A program made the position numbers and the translations under genes. The notes below the pieces were generated by a model, which saw only the letters and a list, made by a program, of their open reading frames with translations, made no database searches and was not told the DNA's origin. 63,059 nt of DNA from a virus: positions 1-63,059 of the IMG/VR virus record IMGVR_UViG_3300025879_000020; one strand, written 5' to 3'. This document shows, piece after piece, positions 40,717 through 53,553 of this stretch (positions are counted from its first letter, which is position 1; each line of letters opens with the position of its first letter).

Positions 40717-41256
40717 TCATACTTCCATTTGTTTTAAATCATTAAGAACTCGCTCTGGAGTAGTTGTGTCATATGGGTCAGTTGGACAGTTGTCCATAAA
40801 ATCATCTTCTTCCCAAATATACTTAATACGACAGTTTTCGATCAAAGCGACATAACGCCAAGAACGCTTACCAAAGCCAAGGTTGGTTTTGTCGACCAAC
40901 ATATTCATGCCTTTAGCAAAATCGCCGTTACCGTCAGGAAGCATCTCGATGTTTTCGACTCCAAGTTGCTTTTTCCATTGGTACATAACGAACGCATCGT
41001 TAACAGAAGTACAATAAACTTCATCAATTCCGTGACTCAACAGGTCAGGATAGATTGATTCAAACCCAGGAAGTTGACTATTAGAGCAGGTTGGCGTAAA
41101 CGCTCCAGGGAGACCAATAACCAAAACCTTCTTATCTTCAAACAACTCAGAGGTTTTAACGATTTTCCAATCGAACGGGTTATCTCCGTCGATTTCATCA
41201 TTTCGGACACGAGTGTGAAGGGTTACATCAGGCGCCAGTGATAGCATATGCATCAT
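40717..41256 (-). CDS. Peroxiredoxin (Redoxin/Prx5-like)
   Basis: A 179-aa thioredoxin-fold protein. GLPGAFTPTCSNSQLPGFES (about 48-67) holds the PxxxTxxC peroxidatic Cys in Prx5 style. EVYCTSVNDAFVMYQWKKQL and KRSWRYVALIENCRIKYIW match the family. It reduces peroxides using a thiol donor such as the phage or host glutaredoxin. An oxidant-defence gene lodged in the replisome cluster is unusual, and other marine phages carry such genes as auxiliary metabolism. Confidence 0.8.
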   Translation of the reverse strand: MMHMLSLAPDVTLHTRVRNDEIDGDNPFDWKIVKTSELFEDKKVLVIGLPGAFTPTCSNSQLPGFESIYPDLLSHGIDEVYCTSVNDAFVMYQWKKQLGVENIEMLPDGNGDFAKGMNMLVDKTNLGFGKRSWRYVALIENCRIKYIWEEDDFMDNCPTDPYDTTTPERVLNDLKQMEV

Positions 41257-48902: not shown

Positions 48903-49964
48903 TTATACGATCTCGTGATTTTGAGCTTCGACGTACAGCTCTCTTACAATGCCTTTTATGCGAGATAGATCTAAGTCGGTTTCTACCGCATCTACATAAG
49001 TATCTAACAACTCAGCGGTATCTTCTAGAGAAACCTTATTATCATCTACGTTCTCGCCCGAGAACTCTTCAAAGGTTTCAGCAATCTTCAGCTCGTGAGT
49101 ATTAACGTATTGTAACTTATCTATAAAGCGATCGAAGGTGTATGGATCCTTCTTGTTTACAACGACTACCTTTACGAACTTATCTGCGTATTGGTCAACG
49201 TCTGGCTTTTCGTAGTTACTCTTGACGTCATCGTAGTAGACTTTCTGGAACAGGGTTATAGGGTTGGGAATAGCAGTTATCTCCCTTGTTTCTGTATCCA
49301 GGACGTGGAAGTATTTCTGGTCTTCACAGTCAGCCCAAGTAAACTCCATCTGCGAACCGAAGTACGAGATGTTACCCTGCGTAGACTTAGTGTGGAAGTG
49401 CCCAGAGAATACACTCTCGAATCGCTTGAAATGAGTAGCCGACATACCGTGTGGGTTCGGCATACCTTTATGCATCTCAAACCCTTCAATCTCAAAGTGC
49501 CCACCCAACATAGAGGCTTCGCAGTTAGCAATGAAGTCCATAGAGTCGGAATAGTTACTAGCATTGATCCAAGGGACAACGCCAACCTTACAACCGTCAT
49601 AGTCTAAGACCTTCGGCTCCATAATGATGTTAACATTAGAAGTGAAGTAACCGAGTAACTCTTTTAATGAGCAGAGCTCGTTGGTGTTCTTATAGAATAC
49701 GTCGTGGTTGCCAGGAATGATATCCATCGTCATACCATACTTCTTCAAAGGGTTCAAGAAGTGCTGGCGATTAGAGTTTAGAGCTTTGAAGTTTACAAAC
49801 TTGCGATGCTCGTAATAGTCGCCAAGGTGTAAGACGGTTTTAACATCATTGTCTAGGCAATACGGGAAGAACACTTCCTCGTAGAACTTTCGTTGGTACT
49901 CAATAAAGATATCTGAGCTGTTGCGGGTTCCGCAGTGTGTATCATTTAGTATTGCTATCTTCAT
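48903..49964 (-). CDS. gp47: Recombination endonuclease subunit gp47 (SbcD/Mre11-like)
   Basis: A 353-aa metallophosphoesterase nuclease: MKIAILNDTHCGTRN (motif I), VLHLGDYYEHRK (motif II), IPGNHDVFY (motif III), SVFSGHFHTKS (motif V). It is the nuclease partner of gp46. ATG 49964 has GGAGG 9 nt upstream. The 5' end overlaps gp55 by 23 nt. Confidence 0.95.
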   Translation of the reverse strand: MKIAILNDTHCGTRNSSDIFIEYQRKFYEEVFFPYCLDNDVKTVLHLGDYYEHRKFVNFKALNSNRQHFLNPLKKYGMTMDIIPGNHDVFYKNTNELCSLKELLGYFTSNVNIIMEPKVLDYDGCKVGVVPWINASNYSDSMDFIANCEASMLGGHFEIEGFEMHKGMPNPHGMSATHFKRFESVFSGHFHTKSTQGNISYFGSQMEFTWADCEDQKYFHVLDTETREITAIPNPITLFQKVYYDDVKSNYEKPDVDQYADKFVKVVVVNKKDPYTFDRFIDKLQYVNTHELKIAETFEEFSGENVDDNKVSLEDTAELLDTYVDAVETDLDLSRIKGIVRELYVEAQNHEIV

Positions 49965-50532
49965 TCGCACCATCCTCCATAAACAACTCTAACGACTTTT
50001 TCTGAGCCTTCTCTTTCTTCTCAAACTCCTTTACTACTCGGTCGGATTCTTTAACCCGATCGATTCTAGTACGGAGCTCTTCAACGAAGTTCTGCTCAAT
50101 AATATAGTCGTCCCCTTCTGCGAGTACCATAAACTCGTCAAAGGAGGCTTGCTCTATGAACTTCATCTTAACGTCAAACTGCTTCTTTTCCTTCTGGATC
50201 CTTCGTACAAAGGCGTAGAAACAGATCTGAGTAAAGTATGAGAATGCGTTGGGGGTGCCCGTTCGAGTCTTGGTGTTGATATCGTAGTTCCGAATCGCTT
50301 TAAGGCAATTCTCGACTGCGTCCATAACCATCTCTTCACGGTAGGTGTAGCGGATAAAGTTGGGTCGGTGGGATAGTCCTTCAGAGATACGAAGGAAACA
50401 TTTTGCGATGTACTCCGTAACGATAGGGGCTTCTTTACCCTGCTCGATCGCTTCGTTGACACTGGTCACATAATCAACGACAGCGAGTGAGAACTCTTTG
50501 TTGTTAACATAGTGGGGTTTATTTTGAGACAT
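49942..50532 (-). CDS. gp55: Late transcription sigma factor, T4 gp55-like
   Basis: A 196-aa sigma-like protein. HYVNNKEFSLAVVDYV at the N-terminus as in T4 gp55; LRISEGLSHRPNFIRYTYRE (about 50-69), MVMDAVENCLKAIRNYD and SYFTQICFYAFVRRIQKEKK (sigma region 2-like). KKSLELFMEDG near the C-terminus is like the clamp-binding tail. With host RNA polymerase it recognises TATAAATA promoters, which match those seen in this window. ATG 50532, GGAGGAG 7 nt upstream. Confidence 0.92.
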   Translation of the reverse strand: MSQNKPHYVNNKEFSLAVVDYVTSVNEAIEQGKEAPIVTEYIAKCFLRISEGLSHRPNFIRYTYREEMVMDAVENCLKAIRNYDINTKTRTGTPNAFSYFTQICFYAFVRRIQKEKKQFDVKMKFIEQASFDEFMVLAEGDDYIIEQNFVEELRTRIDRVKESDRVVKEFEKKEKAQKKSLELFMEDGANEDSNTK

Positions 50533-50574: not shown

Positions 50575-50603
50575 ATTATACTATAGTTTCGCCATGAAGT
50601 AAA
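50575..50603 (-). promoter_or_regulatory. Early promoter of gp55-gp47-gp46
   Basis: Minus-strand TTTACT (50603-50598), 17-bp spacer, TATAGTATAAT-type -10 (50580-50575). Confidence 0.87.
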
Positions 50604-50627
50604 GGGTTATTTTTTTTCTTTTAGGGG

Positions 50628-50656
50628 TTTACTTTTAGCCGAAAGTATAGTATAAT
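50628..50656 (+). promoter_or_regulatory. Plus-strand early promoter, antisense to uvsW region
   Basis: GGGGTTTACT (-35 50628-50633), 17-bp spacer, TATAGTATAAT (-10 50651-50656): every feature of the minus-strand promoters, but pointing right. No convincing plus-strand gene follows. The RNA would be antisense to the 116-aa gene and uvsW. Confidence 0.82.
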
Positions 50657-50689
50657 CAAGAAGTCGCCGCAGGAGTGGGGGATATACCT

Positions 50690-51040
50690 TTAGTGGATGG
50701 TCTCGTCACCATCGATCATATACTGATCAGTATTATCAACCTCAGGCTCAAGCTCTTTTTGAGGAGTTGTAACTACTGACTGTATGTAGGTTTCCTTCAC
50801 TCGCTCGGTACATTCCCCAAGAGAAATGACAGAAGCAGCGTTTACATATACTGGGCTCTTAAACTCACAGAGGCTCATCCAATTAGAAAACCAGAATCCC
50901 GAGTCTTTCCTTGAGTACTCGATCTTAACTGGTCGTTCTAATATATAGCCAGTCTCATCAGCACCCTGCATGTATGCAACCAGCTCTTCCCCTGATATCA
51001 ACTTAAACTGTTTTATTCTAACATCGCTCAAATCGTTCAA
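50690..51040 (-). CDS. Conserved phage hypothetical protein, 116 aa
   Basis: MNDLSDVRIKQFKLISGEEL... with LERPVKIEYSRKDSGFWFS, a small beta-barrel-like protein (KLISGEEL...Y at the start of many Sm-like phage proteins) conserved beside uvsW in cyanophages. Overlaps uvsW by 4 nt. It lies just downstream of the plus-strand promoter and is antisense to it. Confidence 0.65.
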   Translation of the reverse strand: MNDLSDVRIKQFKLISGEELVAYMQGADETGYILERPVKIEYSRKDSGFWFSNWMSLCEFKSPVYVNAASVISLGECTERVKETYIQSVVTTPQKELEPEVDNTDQYMIDGDETIH

Positions 51041-52554
51041 AGCTGTACCTCGTAAATTGTATACTCAAACTTTTCTTTAGAGTAAATCTTAATTCTTTCG
51101 CCAGCGTGGTTTAGTGTGTAGTTCTTATGTTGCTTCCAATGTAAGTCATCGGCAATATCGTATAAGATAGTTCCCTTGCCGTCGTCAGCCTTACGAAGCC
51201 CACGCCCAATTGACTGCAAAATCTTAATCTGCGACTTAGAAGGCGAGGCAAAGATAACGTTGTTAAGGTTTCTTATGTTAACGCCTGTAGAGAAGGTTCC
51301 CAACGAAGCCACGATGATAGCGTCTTTTTCTTTCTCGGTAATCTGTCTAACCCTTTCTCTATCGTCTACGTCGGTTTCACCCGAAACAAAGAAGATCTTC
51401 CTTCCAGAGTGTACTTTCTCTAGTATCATATTATATAGGGGTTTTCCATGCTTCTCCACGAAATTGAATAGGACTAGGGTATTACCCTCTTGATCAACCG
51501 CAAGGTTTGTAATAAACTTGTTTCGCTTTTCGTGACGAACGATGAAGTCTACTTCTTCTTGATACTTGGCTTTCTTTAGCTGTTGACAAGTAACGTCATC
51601 GTACTTCAATAGAAGAACCTTAATGTCTAGGTCGGCGAGAGCGCCAGAGTCAATTAGGTCTTTGGTTGAAGTAACTTTGAATACAGAACCGAAGTGCCCT
51701 TCTAGTACGAGCCTGTGGGTTTGAGTTCCGTCTAGAGTACCTGTAGCTCCGATACGAAACTCAGCCTCTTTCAGCTTAGACATAATTGCGCCAAGGGATT
51801 TGGCTTTGAAGTTGTGAGCTTCGTCGCCAATAACCATACCGAAGTCTTTAAACCATTCAACGCCCAGCTTGTAAATAGACTGCCATGTGGTAATCACTAT
51901 ACGAGGATTGTGACTAGGGTATTTCTCTTTTCCGCCATAGATCTTATGAATCTCAGCTTCGGCATCAAAGTTCTCATCCCATTTAGAATAATCCGCAAAG
52001 TCAGAAGCCATTTGCTCCACGAGAGAGGTAGTTGGTACAACGATTAGAACGTTCTTATCCCTTTTCTCTAGGTAATACCGCATGGCGCAGTAGATGATAA
52101 GGGATTTGCCCGAAGCGGTTGGGGACAATAGGAGGGATCGCTTAGTTTCGAGAGCATGTTCTATAGCGGTTAGCTGATAATCCCGTGGCTCGATTTTCTT
52201 ATCTGAAGCAGTAAGGTTTAGCGAATCTATAAACTCACGAAACCAATTATAGTCTAAAGGTTCGGTTGAGTCTGGTCGCCCATAGTATGGGTTATGCTCT
52301 ACCTGTAGGTCGTAGTCCCTAACAGCCACAAACTCCGATAGGTACGGATAAAGTCCAATCGGTAGTTCTTTGCTCCTAGCATCGTATAACCTAATCTTAC
52401 CATCCCATATCTTATTCTTGTACGCAGGCATAAACTTATATCCTGGCACAAAGAAGCAAAAGAAGTCCGATAGTTCGGCTTCGATTGCTGGGTCTGTATT
52501 GATTTCTAGGAAGGCGTGGTTCTTCTTCTTAACAGAAAGTATCTCTGACATCAT
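51037..52554 (-). CDS. uvsW: UvsW-like SF2 DNA/RNA helicase
   Basis: A 505-aa helicase. N-terminal region, then Walker A SPTASGKSLI (about 142-151), VVPTTSLVEQMASD, VIGDEAHNF (about 237-245, DEAH-type), IGATGTLDG and FGSVFKVTSTK, ending SIGRGLRKADDGKGT (motif VI). T4 UvsW unwinds R-loops and branched DNA and helps switch to recombination-dependent replication. Followed by the 116-aa gene, preceded by uvsY (4-nt overlap). Confidence 0.94.
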   Translation of the reverse strand: MMSEILSVKKKNHAFLEINTDPAIEAELSDFFCFFVPGYKFMPAYKNKIWDGKIRLYDARSKELPIGLYPYLSEFVAVRDYDLQVEHNPYYGRPDSTEPLDYNWFREFIDSLNLTASDKKIEPRDYQLTAIEHALETKRSLLLSPTASGKSLIIYCAMRYYLEKRDKNVLIVVPTTSLVEQMASDFADYSKWDENFDAEAEIHKIYGGKEKYPSHNPRIVITTWQSIYKLGVEWFKDFGMVIGDEAHNFKAKSLGAIMSKLKEAEFRIGATGTLDGTQTHRLVLEGHFGSVFKVTSTKDLIDSGALADLDIKVLLLKYDDVTCQQLKKAKYQEEVDFIVRHEKRNKFITNLAVDQEGNTLVLFNFVEKHGKPLYNMILEKVHSGRKIFFVSGETDVDDRERVRQITEKEKDAIIVASLGTFSTGVNIRNLNNVIFASPSKSQIKILQSIGRGLRKADDGKGTILYDIADDLHWKQHKNYTLNHAGERIKIYSKEKFEYTIYEVQL

Positions 52555-52997
52555 ACACCGCTGGTAAACTTATGCCACTCGATGATATTACGGATGGTTT
52601 GGTGTCGCCATTTCAAAGTGTCCATAATTTCAGTGAGAGTAGCGATTATCTCTGTAACCAAATCTATCTTAGCCGATAGCTCTTGGAGGTCTTGGTCTTC
52701 TTTAAAGTAATGCTCTACTTCACCCTTCAGGATTTTGATCCCGTCGGTTGGGTCGGGGTTCCAGCCAAGGCGATTAACCTCGTCCACTGACATGCGACCC
52801 ATATAGTATCTATACTTCTTAGATTGCATCATTTCGAGCTGCGTCTCGAAGTAACGCCTTTCTAACTTAGACTTGGTTAGCATCTCGAGGTATTTGGCAT
52901 GTAGCTTCGCCGTATTACGAGAGCTCTCATCAAGTTTTAGCTGATCGATCTCAGTTTCTTGTTTCCATTCTTCAAGGATCTTTTCAATTTTATACAT
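52551..52997 (-). CDS. uvsY: UvsY recombination mediator
   Basis: A 148-aa helical protein. EEWKQETEIDQLKLDESSR near the N-terminus, RYFETQLEMMQSKKYRYYMG, and the C-terminal block IIATLTEIMDTLKWRHQTIR plus EWHKFTSG match UvsY of marine T4-like phages. It loads UvsX on ssDNA. Overlaps uvsW by 4 nt. Confidence 0.85.
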   Translation of the reverse strand: MYKIEKILEEWKQETEIDQLKLDESSRNTAKLHAKYLEMLTKSKLERRYFETQLEMMQSKKYRYYMGRMSVDEVNRLGWNPDPTDGIKILKGEVEHYFKEDQDLQELSAKIDLVTEIIATLTEIMDTLKWRHQTIRNIIEWHKFTSGV

Positions 52998-53492: not shown

Positions 53493-53521
53493 ATTATACC
53501 TTTATTTATACGAAAAGTAAA
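53493..53521 (-). promoter_or_regulatory. Early promoter overlapping a late promoter
   Basis: Minus-strand TTTACT (53521-53516), 17-bp spacer, TATAAT (53498-53493). The spacer contains the late -10 TATAAATA. Predicted to serve the tail protein, uvsY and uvsW in both phases. Confidence 0.85.
53503..53510 (-). promoter_or_regulatory. Late promoter TATAAATA within the early promoter spacer
   Basis: Exact late -10, 29 nt upstream of ATG 53474. Overlap with the early promoter implies mutually exclusive use. Confidence 0.78.
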
Positions 53522-53526
53522 GGGCG

Positions 53527-53553
53527 AAAAAAAGGGGGATCCGAAGATCCCCC
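53527..53553 (-). terminator. Strong UUCG-loop terminator after gp23
   Basis: 8-bp stem GGGGGATC/GATCCCCC, UUCG loop (minus strand), then seven T. Ends the capsid transcript. Confidence 0.93.

Follow-up and report, generated by a model that had tools for sequence, protein, structure and literature searches.

A backwards-pointing promoter in marine T4-like phages is very probably a regulatory switch that makes a non-coding antisense RNA

Next to uvsW, marine T4-like phages carry a conserved early-type promoter that points backwards, against the genes around it, and on sequence evidence we conclude that this promoter is, very probably, a genuine regulatory switch producing a non-coding antisense RNA. 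We give about an even chance to a more specific reading, in which this is a functional antisense promoter, kept at the 3′ boundary of the uvsY–uvsW operon, whose opposing transcription in cis limits or insulates that operon. Kyanoviridae are among the commonest phages of the ocean, and the element bears on the question of how transcription is timed and replication is started in this family without MotA/AsiA. An opposing promoter with its own leader, present in all tested cyanophage loci and in most of the other tested relatives, is a precise and testable regulatory element. The window analyzed here is the whole stretch of 63,059 nucleotides of IMG/VR virus record IMGVR_UViG_3300025879_000020, and its features are collected in Table 1.

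The plus-strand promoter matches the phage's own consensus (TTTACT/TATAAT with 17-bp spacing) at 12 of 12 positions, placing it among sigma70-type promoters. A scan of both strands for perfect TTTACT-N17-TATAAT sites returned 15 on the minus strand (plus about four near-perfect ones) and one on the plus strand, with 0.016 expected by base composition per strand of the window, and a census of the looser pattern TTKACW-N17-TANAAT gave 19 minus-strand sites, one plus-strand site, and none in the reversed control. The best minus-strand sites and the plus-strand site also have in common the flanks GGGG..TTTACTT and TATAGTATAAT. Thus, the original prediction that this promoter is as good as those of the minus strand, and is the only early promoter on the plus strand, holds. 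The coordinates likewise confirm that it diverges from the gp55 promoter, with the −35 boxes 24 bp apart; their sequences pair as a 29-nt inverted repeat, 83% complementary, of which the plus-strand site is the outer arm. The antisense promoter lies on the strand opposite an annotated gene, which its transcript would overlap, as befits a cis-antisense RNA. From the predicted start, that RNA would cross the 3′ end of the 116-aa gene and then uvsW, as had been proposed, while the proposed reach to uvsY and the late head genes assumes a long transcript. Late TATAAATA boxes number ten on the minus strand of the window and none on the plus strand; one of them overlaps the early promoter of the gp19-like/uvsY/uvsW/116-aa operon just behind a terminator, which makes this site a tandem early/late control point.

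Table 1. Features of the uvsY–uvsW–gp55 region, in window coordinates.
Feature	Position	Strand	Remarks
gp55, late sigma factor	49942..50532	−	PHROG_234
gp55 early promoter	50575..50603	−	TTTACT-N17-TATAAT; divergent partner of the antisense promoter
Antisense early promoter	50624..50656	+	GGGG, −35 TTTACT (50628-50633), N17, −10 TATAAT (50651-50656); kept in relatives
Predicted transcription start	50663	+	Seventh base after the −10, as sigma70 geometry predicts; both clades most often have G at this column
G/purine-rich initial transcribed block	50671..50687	+	AGGAGTGGGGGATATAC; nearly fixed distance from the −10 in relatives
116-aa gene	50690..51040	−	PHROG_527/471; cyanophage homologues labeled "methylamine utilization"; an antisense RNA would first overlap its 3′ end
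uvsW helicase	51037..52554	−	0.4 kb downstream of the antisense start
uvsY	52551..52997	−	
Early promoter of the gp19-like/uvsY/uvsW/116-aa operon	53493..53521	−	Perfect match
Late TATAAATA box of the same operon	53510-53503	−	
Intrinsic terminator	53534..53553	−	Strong; ends the gp23 transcript and precedes the gp19-like/uvsY/uvsW operon

Conservation was assessed in 160 IMG/VR loci fetched with gp55 and UvsW as queries, a sample of relatives chosen by conserved gp55 or UvsW peptides. Of the loci collected, 144 carry gp55 along with uvsW, the small gene, or both, nearly always in the order uvsW–small gene–gp55. Most loci have a good promoter directed away from gp55, its −35 element varying by lineage (TTTACT, TTTACA, TGTACA, or TTGACA). 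Counting sites that score at least 11 of 12 and lie 40–260 bp upstream of gp55, and with near-duplicates removed, we found the antisense site in 65 of 92 loci, compared to 0.042 sites per such stretch elsewhere on the same strand (binomial P ~1e-67; the four −35 variants were also allowed in the control but were picked after the data were seen). In 45 of 68 loci, the antisense and gp55 promoters have the same −35 type, which suggests that the antisense promoter co-evolves with the host polymerase. In most records that are complete or long, at most one good promoter besides the junction site opposes the genes, and a model of the promoter with its leader yields essentially one opposing match per genome. 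Two further matches to this model in G003 (56555 and 25191) were set aside as ordinary promoters of genes on the same strand.

The same arrangement extends to cyanophages. The GenBank Synechococcus phages S-RIM14, S-SRM01, S-BM3, ACG-2014f, and S-RIM2 have the same gene order with the antisense promoter in the same place, and a count that drew on 80 more IMG/VR loci found the promoter in 64 of 64 non-redundant cyanophage loci (null 29% at the looser threshold used), with TTGACA in 63 of the 64, 17-bp spacing in every one, and a −10 of the form TANAAT. Here the promoter is followed by the palindrome AACYCTGTNAGGGTTCAARGG (also given as AACCCTGTCAGGGTT), which lies over the predicted start and which cyanophages carry in place of the G block; its form and placement suggest an operator. 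The palindrome AACYCTGTNAGGGTT also occurs at the start of a few sense promoters (L278 990, L279 961, L281 974, and L282 1012). In S-RIM2, these promoters serve cpeT and one more small gene; in two IMG/VR phages, they serve a gene for a PDDEXK-like nuclease. Copies behind sense promoters indicate that this start sequence is the hallmark of a small class of promoters, of which the junction member is the one that points backwards, and the junction promoter and these sense promoters possibly constitute a small regulon. Sequenced cyanophages such as S-RIM2, S-RIM14, and S-BM3 carry the element, which makes it accessible to laboratory infections and perhaps to strand-specific RNA-seq data that already exist.

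The inverted repeat formed by the two promoters in the window raises the question of whether the antisense promoter has no function, having arisen either as a side effect of a strong divergent promoter region or when the gp55 promoter was recently duplicated in inverted orientation. We regard this as hardly credible given that the promoter is retained, with a conserved leader of its own, in the 65 of 92 and 64 of 64 diverged loci. Moreover, a cytidylyltransferase-like gene is inserted before gp55 in L024, L044, L055, L057, L062, L073, and L052, and in these loci the antisense promoter and its block remain where the 116-aa-type gene ends; in the first six named, a gene separates the antisense promoter from the gp55 promoter, yet the former is kept. 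Conservation and insertions together essentially exclude the side-product explanation offered in the original prediction.

In relatives other than cyanophages, the G/purine-rich block ends in TATAC, which lies 25–27 nt past the −10 in most loci with that motif. G makes up at least 50% of the block stretch at 71% of the antisense junction promoters versus 0.4% of 237 sense promoters from the same loci. Conservation of the start sequence ends ~30 nt past the −10, and the convergent gene has its stop codon 27–41 nt past it. A near-identical phage (G009), whose UvsW is 100% identical to that of the window, carries a second antisense copy (L180 2990-3065; G009 40989-41064) at a locus before which the window ends. 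This copy faces an oxygenase-like gene at an operon end, ~35 nt from that gene's stop codon, and the two G009 copies share an identical stretch of ~39 nt.

A short RNA that acts in trans or binds ribosomes could account for several of these observations: only its first 25–30 nt would matter, and its Shine-Dalgarno-like purine block would bind the 30S subunit or another RNA. The abrupt end of conservation, the restriction of the block to the junction promoter, and the stretch repeated within one phage all agree with this proposal, but we consider it improbable because the element always sits at the junction, a placement that a trans-acting RNA would not need, and because we found no fixed start codon, structure, Rfam match, or terminator for a short product. 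Specifically, an Rfam search of eight loci returned tRNA only, consensus folding of 54 antisense starts gave no pairs, the antisense RNA of the window folded no better than its shuffles (z −1.15), and the signal for an antisense intrinsic terminator within 500 nt was not above that of shuffled sequence. A reading of the G block as a Shine-Dalgarno sequence was rejected, as no start codon lies at a fixed distance from it.

We likewise found little sign of a protein product. Behind the promoter in the window are a 34-codon GTG ORF at 50675, which abuts AGGAG, and then ORFs of 40 and 36 codons; none of the plus-strand ORFs that follow has a proper ribosome-binding site, as the original prediction had stated. 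Among the relatives, no protein-coding frame behind the promoter is conserved, as expected for a cis-antisense RNA, with L051 as the exception. In that locus, a ~300-codon amidinotransferase-like frame (identified by eye) runs on the minus strand from ~2342 down, directly behind the antisense promoter; it has no in-frame ATG or GTG near the Shine-Dalgarno-like block, and ATA ATA occupies the expected start position. The L051 frame is what would favor a promoter that belongs to a coding gene, one since lost in most relatives or read from an unusual start codon. We judge this very unlikely because the antisense ORFs of the other loci span 1–95 codons, are unrelated, and often consist of an ATG followed by a stop. 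Downstream of the start block, conservation did not exceed that of a control gene end; raised conservation at synonymous sites of the overlapped gene end was dropped as a candidate signal when the uvsW control showed the same.

The original prediction put forward, as one possibility, an early antisense RNA specific to one gene, which would delay UvsW until late infection. The orientation and early type of the promoter fit this proposal, as does the short distance to uvsW, and T4 UvsW is made from a late promoter (PMC3016281). Against it, the uvsW operon is served by an early promoter of its own, a perfect match standing in tandem with a late TATAAATA box, which weakens the case for a delay, and no antisense terminator signal rises above shuffled sequence within 500 nt. 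In addition, genes other than the 116-aa type may stand between the promoter and uvsW: in L022, L053, L127, L154, and L068, the last gene facing the promoter is not of that type, and the promoter is kept. This tolerance of different genes in front indicates that no single gene is the obligatory target. The operon's own early promoter and the retention of the antisense promoter behind intervening genes speak against a delay of UvsW, which we now consider quite unlikely.

Tolerance of inserted genes would also suit an R-loop replication origin of the T4 oriF/oriG/oriE kind, in which the purine-rich antisense RNA would prime the leading strand and UvsW would later unwind the R-loop. The element resembles those origins in being a short promoter unit near uvsW that would put a non-coding transcript to use, and it occurs once per genome as a promoter with a short conserved start. 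T4 origins comprise a promoter plus ~100 bp, with an early promoter serving oriE, and their R-loops are unwound by UvsW (PMC3016281); MotA and AsiA are absent from cyanophages (PMC2984593). The purine- and G-rich transcript, not found at sense promoters, would form a very stable RNA:DNA hybrid through its 5′ part. However, shifts in strand composition or transcription direction have been reported near T4 oriE, oriF, and oriG, whereas here a change of GC skew at the site is absent in C48C1 and in the window, and the flanking genes on both sides run in the same direction. The predicted element also differs from the T4 origins in having neither a MotA box nor an AT-rich unwinding element (AT 0.64 at the overlapped gene end versus 0.65 for the rest; 0.69 versus 0.67 in cyanophages). 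Finally, the second copy abuts an ordinary operon end, and cyanophages have a palindrome instead of the G block. Taking both sides together, we think an origin doubtful. A broader formulation, that a single backwards promoter with a conserved start beside uvsW is a family-wide Kyanoviridae element serving either as an R-loop origin or as a dedicated transcription-boundary element, also seems to us rather unlikely.

We therefore return to opposing transcription at the operon boundary. No intrinsic terminator was found 3′ of the 116-aa gene to part the uvsW operon from gp55. In Escherichia coli, antisense promoters at gene 3′ ends cause repression that scales with promoter strength, with collision and antisense RNA contributing about equally (Brophy and Voigt 2016, PMC4731013). 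The E. coli result and the missing terminator make limiting or insulating the operon the simplest reading. Host sigma70 RNA polymerase would start at about 50663, its product would be a non-coding RNA rich in purines at the 5′ end, and this polymerase would meet head-on those completing the operon that ends there. Opposing polymerases and antisense pairing would then reduce read-through into gp55 and the replication and recombination genes behind it, and the same opposition in cis may lower expression of the uvsY–uvsW operon. The E. coli constructs likewise place the reverse promoter directly beyond the target gene's 3′ end, but are synthetic and lack the conserved initial transcribed sequence of the junction element. 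Of note, simple collision needs neither the G block nor the palindrome, so we postulate that something more is probably going on.

The promoter shares its −35/−10 architecture with T4 early promoters (sigma70, TTTACT/TATAAT-like), but it opposes genes, has no gene behind it, and carries a unique G/purine-rich initial sequence. The closest precedent is CfrI of phage S-PM2, an antisense RNA of ~225 nt at psbA and a homing endonuclease gene, demonstrated experimentally according to the accounts of Millard et al. 2010 in PMC2984593 and PMC5931967, and described as the earliest antisense RNA to be reported for T4-like phages (PMC2984593). Both cases involve a non-coding transcript antisense to the coding strand of a lytic, T4-like marine phage; CfrI is demonstrated and tied to the psbA region, whereas the uvsW/gp55 element is predicted and kept across the family. 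We found no report of an antisense promoter or RNA at uvsW/gp55 in the literature searched, in which subscription papers were thinly covered, and provisionally regard the junction element as not previously described. Separately, we observed that the PHROG_471-type proteins, which are ~25–35% identical to one another, have histidine as their C-terminal residue in 45 of 55 loci with the element.
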